Shown: one piece after another, positions 11,452 to 15,491 of the stretch
How positions within the stretch are numbered: the stretch's first letter is position 1
Layout: each line of letters opens with the position of its first letter
Assembly (NCBI GenBank): GCA_028824015.1
Contig: JAPPFC010000017.1
Span: 1 to 64,000, forward strand
Source: a bacterium
GTDB lineage: Bacteria > Actinomycetota > Acidimicrobiia > Spongiisociales > ZC4RG35
DNA length: 64,000 nt
Reading direction: 5' to 3'
Notes under the pieces: model-generated
Database searches by the model: none
The model's input: the letters and a program-made list of their open reading frames with translations, nothing else
What the model was told of the DNA's origin: nothing
Position numbers and translations under genes: made by a program

Positions 11452-12046
11452 CTCCTCCCCTCTCTCGTAGTCGGCTTTCGTCTCACTCCGCCTCCTAGCT
11501 TTACAAAATGTACAGTCTACAGCGCCTGGGATCATAGCGTCTTCCGGTTTTGTCTCCCCGGCTCTGTGGGAACAGCTTTTCAAGGGTGTGATAAAAACCC
11601 CATAAAGCCCGCCCCCTCTTGCCGACACCCCGACCCGGCGTGGGAGGGGCGGTGCCGTAAGCGGGTAGAGGGGTTGACCGATTCTCAGACTGTGAAAAAA
11701 TGGGGAGTAAGAAGATTGTTTTTTGTCCCAGGGGGGTGTCATATTGTTGGGAGCCAAGCACTTGAGGCGGTTCGTTCCGGCGTCGTTCGGACCCCAACGA
11801 AGGATCAAACCCGGTCTGCTCAACAGCCCTGTTCTGGGCTGTCCGGGCTTGTTGGACCCTGGATAGGTGGTGGTGGGGGAGGGAAACCCGTAGGGGGACC
11901 TTCGTTTTCGCGAGTTCCAACCTGGGCCGCTGCATTCCCCTACGGTTCAGGCGTTGCGCCTTAGCGGAAGGGTTTAGTGTTAGTTTTACCAACTTCATGA
12001 TATGTGGGGGTGGTTTGTCACACCCCCTGGGCATACTAGTAGAGAC
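11452..12046. other. 595-base stretch without a convincing gene
   Basis: Open frames here lack ribosome sites and family signatures. It is richer in A/T than its surroundings. It contains an inverted repeat CCGTAGGGG (11888-11896) / CCCCTACGG (11937-11945) and a small palindrome TACAAAATGTA near 11512. It must hold the promoters of the 64-residue protein gene (minus) and the HNH gene (plus), but I cannot place clear -35/-10 pairs. It may be a remnant of past insertion. Confidence 0.5.
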
Positions 12047-13264
12047 ATGAACAAAGCAGATGTGAACGGACAAGCACGGAACCAAGCCGTGATCCTGGCG
12101 CCCACCGTGCCGGTATGCGACGCTACGGTGGCAGAGCTTCGGGACCGAGTGCAGTCCACTATCCGTGGGGAGAACCAACTGGCGGGGATCCGCGCCGAGG
12201 CCCTGGCCGAGTTGCAGCGTCGGGCGGGAACCGCCCTCACCGAAGTGGAACTGCGGGAGAAGGGCAAGAAACCCCGGCGGCGAGCCAGGTCGGAAGTGGA
12301 AACGGCTCGGGAACTGGAGAAGCTACCCGAGACGTCGAAGGGCCTCCGAGACGGGGACATCCCATACGACAACGCCCGTATCCTGGCCGACGCCAACCAA
12401 CGGGCCCCGATAGACGAAAAAGAACTGTTGGACGACGCCCGTACCCAGTCTCCAGATAAGTTCGCGGCGACGGTCCGCAAACACGAACAACAACGTTCCG
12501 CAGACGACGGGGTCTCGAAGTTGGAGCATCAGAAGTCGCGGCGGTACGCCAAGATCCGCACCAGCATCGAAGATGGGATGACCGTTCTGTATGGGAGGTT
12601 CGATCCGATCACAGGAGCGCGGATAGAGACCGCTCTGTCCCGCAAGATGAACGAGCTCTGGCAGGAAGAAGACCCGAACAACCGGGCCACACCGGCCCAG
12701 AGAATGGCCGACGCCCTTGCTCTGTTGCTCACCCGCCCCGGAGGCGACAAGGACGGAGCGTCCCAGGACGTGAAACTGTTGGTGATCGCCGACTATGACG
12801 TGGTGAGCCAACAGTTGCGCAATGCCCGTTTGGAGAACGGGACTCCCATCCCGGCGGGGGAACTACGCCGGTTGGCATGCGACGCGCAGATCCTCCCCGC
12901 CATCTTCGGGGGACCGTCGGTACCGATGGACATGGGCATGGCCCGGCGGAAAGCCAGTCCCACCCAACGCGCGGCTCTCATCGCCCGCGACCGGGCATGC
13001 ATAGGGTGCGGCGCCAAAGCAGCATGGTGCCAGTCGCACCATATTGTTCACTGGCAGGACGGAGGGCCCACCAACGTGGACAACATGTGCCTGCTCTGCT
13101 CCCGATGCCACCACAACGTCCACGACCGCAACTGGCAGGTCGAACGAACCCCCACCGGCGCCTACCGACTACACCCACCACCCAACCGACAGGAACACCC
13201 ACCCACAACCAACCAACACCAGCCACGCCGCAGGGCGCTCCACCCAACCAAACAAAGAAAATAG
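12047..13264 (+). CDS. DUF222 / 13E12-repeat HNH endonuclease-like protein
   Basis: A 405-residue protein of the actinobacterial 13E12 repeat family: a long helical DUF222-type region (about residues 20-300) and a C-terminal HNH nuclease motif. The HNH part has a zinc-binding CIGCG, then QSHHIVHWQDGGPTNVDNMCLLC and CHHNVHD, so both catalytic and zinc residues look intact. These genes are multicopy and mobile-looking in actinobacteria; biological role and target are not established. The start at 12047 fits MNKADVNGQ and the onset of family-like sequence; no good ribosome site precedes it, so the message may be nearly leaderless. The tail is rich in Pro/Thr/His and low-complexity. It converges on the FokI-like nuclease gene. 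Confidence 0.85.
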   Translation: MNKADVNGQARNQAVILAPTVPVCDATVAELRDRVQSTIRGENQLAGIRAEALAELQRRAGTALTEVELREKGKKPRRRARSEVETARELEKLPETSKGLRDGDIPYDNARILADANQRAPIDEKELLDDARTQSPDKFAATVRKHEQQRSADDGVSKLEHQKSRRYAKIRTSIEDGMTVLYGRFDPITGARIETALSRKMNELWQEEDPNNRATPAQRMADALALLLTRPGGDKDGASQDVKLLVIADYDVVSQQLRNARLENGTPIPAGELRRLACDAQILPAIFGGPSVPMDMGMARRKASPTQRAALIARDRACIGCGAKAAWCQSHHIVHWQDGGPTNVDNMCLLCSRCHHNVHDRNWQVERTPTGAYRLHPPPNRQEHPPTTNQHQPRRRALHPTKQRK

Positions 13265-13299
13265 GCCGTGCTCTCTCCCTCCCCTCGCTCACAAAGCAA

Positions 13300-14676
13300 C
13301 TAAGAGACAGCCTCGGGAGCAACTGAAGTGGTCAGGAGTTGTAGCCGCATGCGGGTGACGTCTGGCTTGGAGGACGGAACGTAACCGGTCTCTGCATCAC
13401 CGTCAACCGCCCGCACCAACGGATGAGCAAGCATGTCCAGCAGACCTTGTATCTCATCCTTGGAGCTTCCCTCGGCTAGCTCACCACGCTCAAGCATTAT
13501 CAGCCAAAGGTCTCGAGCTCGGAGAGGTCCCACAATCATGCACCGGTCAGAAAGAACTTTCACAATGGCAGCAGCCACGCTCCTCATCCTTGGCCCCTCG
13601 CTAGCCGCTTCGTCCAAATCCGACGTGTCGACTTTGCCGCCCCGCCGTTTCCATGTTCCATCCCCCGCCAGTGTCGCGAACAGAGAGCGATAGTCCGCTA
13701 GCCCCAGTGGCGCCTCCGCATGTTGGAGGCAGAGGCCTGCCAGCAAACTGGCGGACAACACAGCGATCTCGTTCGCTTCAGCACGCTCAATGAGACGAAC
13801 GCCTGACGGTTCGGGTCCAACCAGCACCGCATAGTCTGCCTGGTGCTTCATGCGGTGATCTTTCAAGGTCAACCAATCAACCTGATGGTCACCGAGATTC
13901 CCTGCTCCCACCGTCTTAGCGTCGACGGTCACTCTGTAGGCCAGACCCTTTCCCAAGGGTGCGTTTAGTAGGACATCCGTCTTGCCCGCACCCCCTAATT
14001 GGCGGGCGTCGAAACCGAGAAAGGCAAAACCGGCCCTAACCGCCAACTCGAAGCGTTTGGGGTTCTTGCTGTCGGTAGAGGCCTTTTCGATTTCGGCAGC
14101 CAGCCCTTCAGCATTGATGAGCGACTCCTTGGGAAAACTCTGTGGCTTCTGATGGTCAACCTTCCCTGGATTGATTGGGCCAACCCTGTAAAGTTCAAGG
14201 CTCGCTGCTAAAGCCCGTCCAGCCGTGGTGGCCACGAGACGGCCACCCTCTGTAACTTCAATCAGGCGGGATGACTGTAACCAACCCCTTCGATTGTCTA
14301 TTTGGGTATTGGTCGCCCACCTCAATCCGTATCGACCAGCAGCGGAACGCGTCTCTTCAGTTGACAAGGGCTCGGCCAATTCGGCGATCATTTCCCCGAT
14401 AAAGCGACACCGGCTGTGAATAACAGCCACAAGAGCGTCAACCCTATCATTCTCAAGCCACTGCTTTGCCTCTTGGCTGAGAATGCAAAGGCCGTCTTCC
14501 ACTCGTAACACGCCAGCGCTTCGCAGGAAGGACTCTTTGCCGCCTGCAGCCTTCTTGGTGACCCCTAAGCGTTTGCTTATCTCCTCCGTTAGTTCAGCGG
14601 AGGTCGGGTGACGATCTTCCACGACTTCACACACTTTCCGCAGAGAGTCCAGGTACCCCTCGTAACCACCTGTCAT
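13300..14676 (-). CDS. orphan restriction-endonuclease-like protein with FokI-type cleavage domain
   Basis: A 458-residue protein. Residues 1-165 look like two winged-helix DNA-binding units (TSAELTEEISKRLGV and a second unit ending VATTAGRALAA). Residues about 208-315 match the FokI nuclease domain pattern: FELAV, then LGGAGKTD, then YRVTVDAKT, then DHQVD. The PD-(D/E)xK residues are D234, D252 and K254, with spacing close to FokI D450/D467/K469 and the same LGGxxKxD text. A further helical domain of about 120 residues follows. No methyltransferase is adjacent, so a classical type IIS system is not complete here. Two sampled 60-base lines are 52-53% GC against about 62% in the next gene, suggesting transfer. 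The start at 14676 lacks a good Shine-Dalgarno; the open frame upstream overlaps the ATPase gene and is rejected. Confidence 0.75.
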   Translation of the reverse strand: MTGGYEGYLDSLRKVCEVVEDRHPTSAELTEEISKRLGVTKKAAGGKESFLRSAGVLRVEDGLCILSQEAKQWLENDRVDALVAVIHSRCRFIGEMIAELAEPLSTEETRSAAGRYGLRWATNTQIDNRRGWLQSSRLIEVTEGGRLVATTAGRALAASLELYRVGPINPGKVDHQKPQSFPKESLINAEGLAAEIEKASTDSKNPKRFELAVRAGFAFLGFDARQLGGAGKTDVLLNAPLGKGLAYRVTVDAKTVGAGNLGDHQVDWLTLKDHRMKHQADYAVLVGPEPSGVRLIERAEANEIAVLSASLLAGLCLQHAEAPLGLADYRSLFATLAGDGTWKRRGGKVDTSDLDEAASEGPRMRSVAAAIVKVLSDRCMIVGPLRARDLWLIMLERGELAEGSSKDEIQGLLDMLAHPLVRAVDGDAETGYVPSSKPDVTRMRLQLLTTSVAPEAVS

Positions 14677-14738
14677 AGGGGCTACGGCGCTGCGTCGCTC
14701 CTCCCAGGGGGCAGGGCTGGGATATTCAGAGCAGGAAT

Positions 14739-15491
14739 TCAATGACTGAGTATCTGGCTCAGGAACATCTTGGTGCGGGGATGGCGGGGGTTGGCGAAGA
14801 ATTCCGAGGGTGGGCCCTCTTCGACTATCTGCCCCTCGTCGAACAACACGATGCGGTTGGCGACTTCCCGGGCGAAGCCCATCTCGTGGGTGACGGCCAC
14901 AATGGTCATCCCGGTCCCGGCAAGCTCCTGCATTACCTCCAACACCTCTTTGATCATCTCCGGATCGAGCGCCGACGTCGGCTCGTCGAACAGCATGATC
15001 TGGGGGTCCATGGCCAGGGAACGTGCGATAGCCACCCGCTGCTGCTGGCCGCCCGACAGCTGGCCGGGATACTTGGCAGCCTGTTCCGGGATCCCCACCC
15101 GCTCCAGCAGCGCCATGGCGCGTTCTTCGGCATCCGACCTGGAACGCTTGCGAACCCACACCTGCGCCAGGGTGATGTTCTGCATAACGGTGAGGTGCGG
15201 GAACAGGTTGAACTGCTGGAAGACCATCCCGACCTCCGACCGGATCCGCTCGATGTTGCGTACATCGGAGGTGAGTTCAATTCCGGCCACCACGATCCGG
15301 CCCTCCTGGTGCTGCTCCAGGCGATTGATGCACCGTATGAATGTCGACTTGCCCGAGCCCGACGGACCGATGACCACCACCACCTCCCCTTCCGCGACGG
15401 AGGTGGTGACTCCCCGCAGGGCCTGGAAGTCCCCGAACCACTTCTTCACGTTTTCACAAACGATGATCGGATTGGCTGCTCCGTTGTCCAT
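14739..15491 (-). CDS. aapP: polar amino-acid ABC transporter ATP-binding protein
   Basis: A 250-residue cytoplasmic ATPase of the GlnQ/AapP type that powers amino-acid import. Walker A GPSGSGKST, Q-loop, signature LSGGQQQRVAIARSLA, Walker B IMLFDEP and the switch His in VTHEMGF are all present. The start follows AGGGAG. It lies 17 bases downstream of the aapM-like permease gene in a three-gene minus-strand operon without a binding-protein gene. Confidence 0.93.
   Translation of the reverse strand: MDNGAANPIIVCENVKKWFGDFQALRGVTTSVAEGEVVVVIGPSGSGKSTFIRCINRLEQHQEGRIVVAGIELTSDVRNIERIRSEVGMVFQQFNLFPHLTVMQNITLAQVWVRKRSRSDAEERAMALLERVGIPEQAAKYPGQLSGGQQQRVAIARSLAMDPQIMLFDEPTSALDPEMIKEVLEVMQELAGTGMTIVAVTHEMGFAREVANRIVLFDEGQIVEEGPPSEFFANPRHPRTKMFLSQILSH

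Follow-up and report, generated by a model that had tools for sequence, protein, structure and literature searches.

The window, by which we mean the whole 64,000-nucleotide stretch of DNA analysed here, carries on its minus strand a nuclease gene whose open reading frame covers positions 13300-14676 when counted from an ATG (458 aa), with its stop codon at 13300-13302. Translation probably begins earlier, at a TTG (14742) that overlaps the stop of the ABC ATPase gene lying upstream, and this start gives a protein of 480 aa (coding sequence 13303..14742, minus strand). We prefer this start to the alternative ATG at 14676 because the segment directly upstream of the ATG, EYPSPAPWEERRSAVAPM, is kept as QEYPKPSPWPQRRSAVTPM in a relative with 76% identity (L002, the copy in the sister genome G522) and as P..W..R in the relatives that bear an EVE domain. 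The dN/dS ratio between the window nuclease and the G522 copy is 0.105, which indicates a real gene under selection, and the window protein alone has no match in Pfam, NCBIfam, PADLOC, PHROGs or the PDB sequences.

Judged by alignment with congeners that do not have the gene, the nuclease is a clean one-gene insertion. A blastn comparison of the window with the corresponding loci L034 and L032 delimits the inserted unit at 13280..14742, and the empty sites hold 44 bp in G620 and about 10 bp in G609, with slightly different end points, in place of the nuclease gene. On one side lies the gene for an amino-acid ABC transporter ATPase (14739..15491, minus strand), an ordinary host gene found with or without the nuclease, and on the other a convergent DUF222/HNH gene (12002..13264, plus strand; Pfam DUF222 2e-21, HNH 5.6e-8). 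We considered the latter as a partner and rejected it, since the empty sites carry the DUF222/HNH gene too and it is therefore unlinked to the nuclease. The immediate neighbours in the window are not defence genes. Between positions 13303-14742 of the window and 9941-11380 of L002, dS is 1.6 for the nuclease and 0.30-0.38 for the two flanking genes; a value so far above the flanks suggests that alleles of the gene have been exchanged between lineages at a fixed site.

The predicted core of the protein is a FokI-like PD-(D/E)XK nuclease domain (residues 208-356; 13675..14121, minus strand), assigned from an AF2 model, fold comparison and profile matches. Modelled alone from two sequences, the core reached a pLDDT of 74 and a pTM of 0.75, and among solved structures it is closest to FokI (2fok, Z 13.5; 1fok, Z 13.2), with 143 of its 149 residues aligned to FokI 401-573 of 2fok at an rmsd of 2.9. 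The AlwI-type nickase BspD6I comes next (Z about 11), all non-FokI entries standing at 11.4 and below, and Foldseek on the same core model likewise ranked FokI first (E 4.6e-4). RPB5, Can2 and other PD-(D/E)XK proteins in the fold list have Z below 8, which we regard as the common fold only. The initial annotation had claimed a FokI cleavage domain from short sequence segments and had asked for a structural comparison that might have favoured a non-nuclease fold; the claim is borne out by the first place of FokI, by the presence of the LGGxGKTD and VDAK segments and by the invariance of E232, D256 and K276 in 13 relatives. E232 is encoded at 14047..14049 and the putative catalytic D256, equivalent to FokI D450, at 13975..13977, and the D-x-K motif DAK (D274 and K276, equivalent to FokI D467 and K469) lies at 13915..13923, all on the minus strand, the motif aligning with VDTK in FokI and ADAK in HindIII. 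The second acid, D274, is D or E among the relatives, and one His is also conserved in the alignment. A profile of the 13 relatives that takes in the nuclease and the C-terminal domain (profile A3) aligns along the catalytic stretch with HindIII, at an E of 2.5e-4, and with FokI, at an E of 0.004, and hhalign gave a P of 1.2e-5 against the FokI cleavage domain vs 0.27 against an unrelated ABC ATPase.

The search with the FokI cleavage-domain HMM that had also been proposed turned out otherwise: PF09254 does not match the window protein, and the best relative (L017) reaches 12.9 bits against a cut-off of 25, where a typed-in FokI cleavage domain, used as a control, scores 215.9 bits. The Mrr_cat model (PF04471) has no match in the window protein either, its G522 orthologue scoring 15.0 bits, below the cut-off of 21; several relatives do rise above the Mrr_cat cut-off rather than matching FokI models, and one passes Mrr_N. 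In hhalign, a tandem-winged-helix Mrr of the sister genome (L040) is colinear with the window family through both the winged helices and the nuclease (P 2.7e-4, 259 columns). Given these Pfam scores, the colinearity with Mrr and the fold match to FokI, the nuclease stands between FokI and Mrr_cat by sequence and resembles FokI by predicted fold. The L040 protein itself (G522:C90:3088-3438 region) scores 103 bits with Mrr_cat, and the same genome encodes a 526-aa protein (L053, G522:C14:1681-2007 region) that has motifs like those of reverse transcriptases (YADD) and ends in an Mrr_cat domain.

The likeness to Mrr bears on the function of the protein, for which the initial annotation had offered either a single-gene defence system or a conditional DNA-damaging effector. 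As an effector in abortive infection or stress, the nuclease would attack host or phage DNA once its winged helices sensed a signal or partner, comparable to the activation of E. coli Mrr. The colinearity with the tandem-winged-helix Mrr and the passing of Mrr_cat by relatives would fit such a role, as would the damage that activated Mrr does to host DNA, described in PMC12707154. The protein has no sensor domains other than DNA-binding folds, however, and no partner or antitoxin gene is linked to it at the insertion, so that we hold this second option to be decidedly unlikely; it stays as a rival to the first option, defence, to which we return below.

The N-terminal part of the protein is predicted to hold two winged helices, as the initial annotation had it. 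The first (about residues 26-97 of 480; 14452..14667, minus strand) was modelled by AF2 as H-H-H-E-E-H with a pLDDT of about 70-87, and it alone was taken from the whole-protein model, which was built from two sequences and has an overall pLDDT of 41. The second (about residues 101-182; 14197..14442, minus strand) appears as a low-confidence H-H-H-E-E-H and aligns with the winged helices of relatives, and relatives match Mrr_N and HTH_45 at the winged-helix region. Foldseek found in the N-terminal region, from a low-confidence model, a weak likeness to the winged-helix domains of SelB and to the recognition domain of the type IIS enzyme BpuJI. Behind the nuclease core, where an extra helical domain had been expected, there is indeed a conserved C-terminal domain (about residues 385-470; 13333..13590, minus strand), present under all head types, but to judge from its sequence it looks like a third winged helix; it has a weak WH_MCM3_C match in L015 (E 0.061).

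The analysis took us beyond the initial annotation in three respects, namely the Mrr_cat scoring described above, a large set of unlinked host methyltransferases, and a nuclease family with exchangeable heads. The last of these is new here: one and the same nuclease is joined to an EVE domain, a YTH-like domain, a GHKL ATPase, or winged helices in sets of two or four. Two winged helices only are found in the window protein, L028 and L070, and EVE plus two winged helices in L010, L011, L012 and L029 (PF01878 above cut-off); L013, L016-L019, L071 and L072 have four winged helices, and L015, L073, L075, L077 and L081 have the GHKL head. One of the four-winged-helix proteins (L072, 7166-9457) also ends in an Lsr2 DNA-binding domain (E 1.7e-8). 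The idea that the haloarchaeal head is an EVE domain was dropped, as comparison with the EVE profile gave nothing useful; the head matches instead the YTH domain with which a McrB binds 6mA (6p0f, E 2.5e-5). One Halobacterium plasmid carries a second, weaker relative by the nuclease profile as well (L079, 944-1927; E 1e-7). EVE domains are readers of modified cytosine and YTH domains of 6mA. Binding of modified bases by both is described in PMC12707154 and PMC7641849.

The window protein itself contains no recognised modified-base reader (EVE, SRA or YTH), and a separate EVE protein acting in trans was rejected, none having been found in the host genome (G000) or in G522. Its lineage has probably lost an EVE head. 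In a tree of the nuclease part only, L029, which bears an EVE head, groups with the window clade (98/95), and the divergence of the EVE domain parallels that of the nuclease, with identities of 47% vs 53-55%; set against these, a topology that unites the EVE-headed proteins in one clade is not rejected once the winged helices are added to the alignment (p-AU 0.084), so that the loss is likely rather than proven.

The nuclease is patchily distributed through actinobacteria, Bacillota and haloarchaeal plasmids. A search of the phylum sample with the window protein as query found it in 7 of 396 genomes, and a search of the class with the profile in 6 of 296, and plasmid copies exist in Priestia, Gordonia, Staphylococcus and haloarchaea; the viral contigs and phage records searched yielded no relative. 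Several relatives have defence genes nearby: L010 is about 3-5 kb from the DISARM genes drmB/drmA, L016 adjoins ABC-3C genes, L020 Hma-like genes, and L021 a PLD-helicase and a IIG-like methyltransferase. Judged by eye, the neighbours of L012, L013, L029, L070 and L072 are ordinary. The stretch analysed around L010 ends in what may be a truncated piece of a methyltransferase. The Gordonia copy (L017) adjoins TnsA/Mu-transposase/AAA genes, and together with the patchy spread, the plasmid copies and the allele exchange suggested by dS between the two congeners, this could be taken to mean that the nuclease belongs to a selfish or mobile element outside defence, and aids its own spread or plasmid maintenance. 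We consider this very improbable, given that no recombinase or transposase gene is present at the window insertion, that EVE and YTH-like heads on FokI-fold nucleases point to restriction, and that defence genes lie beside L010, L016, L020 and L021.

The lack of a neighbouring methyltransferase, on which the initial annotation had remarked, was confirmed: PF01555, PF00145 and PF02384 have no match within the 64-kb window, and a methyltransferase motif scan of the window ORFs of at least 180 aa agrees. Extending the survey to homologues, as had been suggested, gave a similar picture, with none of the 14 winged-helix/EVE loci having a methyltransferase by motif scan within the flanks covered (these being short at L011 and on one side of L028). 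Among the GHKL loci, 3 of 5 (L015, L075 and L077) have a methyltransferase adjoining or close behind the nuclease, and the difference from the 0 of 14 has a Fisher p of about 0.01, calculated by hand. In these three (L015 7301-10980, L075 6948-10662, L077 921-5627), a GHKL (HATPase_c_3)-nuclease fusion is near a PF01555-type gene or one with methyltransferase motifs; the methyltransferase gene near GHKL-headed nucleases begins HPFPARM, and the GHKL head of L015 resembles the N-terminal part of NF050001, the model for the restriction enzymes BbrUII/HgiDII, at a score far below the cut-off (E 2.2e-17). The host genome has at least six PF01555, two PF00145 and three clear PF02384 matches above cut-off, all outside the window, one of the PF01555 matches lying at 229 kb of the contig that contains the window, and protection in trans by one of these unlinked enzymes is therefore possible.

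This possibility underlies the main rival to a type IV-like reading, namely that the protein is an orphan type IIS-like enzyme whose winged helices read a specific unmodified sequence and whose nuclease cuts close by in the FokI manner, and that the host is spared by an unlinked methyltransferase or because it has no sites. FokI and BspD6I, the top fold matches, either belong to type IIS or stem from a type IIS enzyme, the N-terminal region has its weak likeness to the BpuJI recognition domain, the host is rich in methyltransferases and a methyltransferase partner does exist in the GHKL branch. No methyltransferase has travelled along with the one-gene insertion, however, or is found in the 14 winged-helix/EVE neighbourhoods, and no class among PF01555, PF00145 and PF02384 is common to all carrier genomes checked (7 for PF01555 and PF00145, 10 for PF02384), G097 having neither PF01555 nor PF00145, G151 neither PF00145 nor PF02384, and G171 no PF01555. 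Nor is a methyltransferase annotated in the roughly 21 kb covered of the 26-kb Staphylococcus plasmid, for which the PLSDB gene table is incomplete. On balance, we think the type IIS-like explanation rather unlikely.

These observations lead us to favour a stand-alone type IV-like restriction enzyme whose target is DNA marked unlike that of the host, an explanation to which we would give about an even chance. The window nuclease has no protective partner gene and its close relatives carry modified-base readers, which makes a single-gene defence against foreign modified DNA probable; it is favoured by the relatives with EVE and YTH-like heads, by the insertion of the gene on its own and by the defence genes beside several relatives. 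Winged-helix fusion endonucleases from other studies, which are 6mA-dependent and in most cases have no methyltransferase beside them (PMC11037411), count in the same direction. On the type IV-like model, the two winged helices would dock on incoming DNA, and the FokI-like PD-(D/E)XK domain would cut nearby with the help of E232, D256, D274, K276 and a divalent metal, probably as a pair with a second copy, in the way of FokI. The target would be modified DNA, and the winged helices may have taken over recognition after the loss of EVE; a methyltransferase would not be needed because the recognised mark or DNA state would be absent from host DNA. Tandem winged helices can also read unmodified sequence, which weighs against the type IV-like model. 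It is possible, although we put it a little short of even, that the head swaps on one FokI-fold cutter reflect a type IV-like lineage aimed by base modification rather than by sequence, of which the window member has dropped its reader and now uses the winged helices alone.

Zinc-finger and TALE nucleases owe their cutting to the cleavage domain of FokI. If our interpretation is correct, a natural lineage in which a FokI-fold cutter is combined with readers of modified bases would form a bridge between type IIS and type IV restriction, could supply epigenome mapping with further enzymes whose cutting depends on modification, and would account for plasmid and chromosomal genes whose present annotation goes no further than 'restriction endonuclease' or 'hypothetical'. 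The head swaps, together with the existence of methyltransferase-paired and methyltransferase-free branches, make the sparing of the host by orphan nucleases directly testable.

Among known systems, FokI (PF09254, type IIS) shares with the window protein the predicted core fold, the D..DxK spacing and winged helices N-terminal to the nuclease, but the window protein has no PF09254 match, a different N-terminal domain, an added C-terminal domain and no linked methyltransferase. The N.BspD6I/R.BspD6I small subunit (AlwI-type nickase) has the second-best core fold, although no match was found at the sequence level; BspD6I is part of a type IIS system that contains a methyltransferase. Mrr (PF14338 Mrr_N plus PF04471 Mrr_cat, type IV) is likewise a single stand-alone gene with a colinear arrangement of winged helix and nuclease, whereas the window protein has no Mrr_cat match, has D/E where Mrr has Q in the D/E/QxK motif, and possesses the extra C-terminal domain. 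The single-gene candidate PDC-S02 of PADLOC is matched by the winged-helix region of L016 (E 1.9e-8) and not by the window protein. EVE-HNH enzymes such as VcaM4I have the EVE reader of the sister proteins, but their nuclease is HNH, and the window protein lacks EVE. YTH-like domains fused to PD-(D/E)XK nucleases have been reported, in a main text that mentions neither FokI nor winged helices (PMC7641849), and the open-licence literature, as far as it was covered by term searches, gave no description of EVE-winged helix-FokI-fold fusions. Lastly, the winged-helix fusion endonucleases (DpnI-like, wH-HNH and wH-GIY-YIG), as presented in PMC11037411, also join a winged helix to a nuclease, mostly without a methyltransferase neighbour, and 6mA dependence has been proposed or shown for them; they differ in nuclease fold or domain order from the window protein, with its tandem winged helices and FokI-like core.
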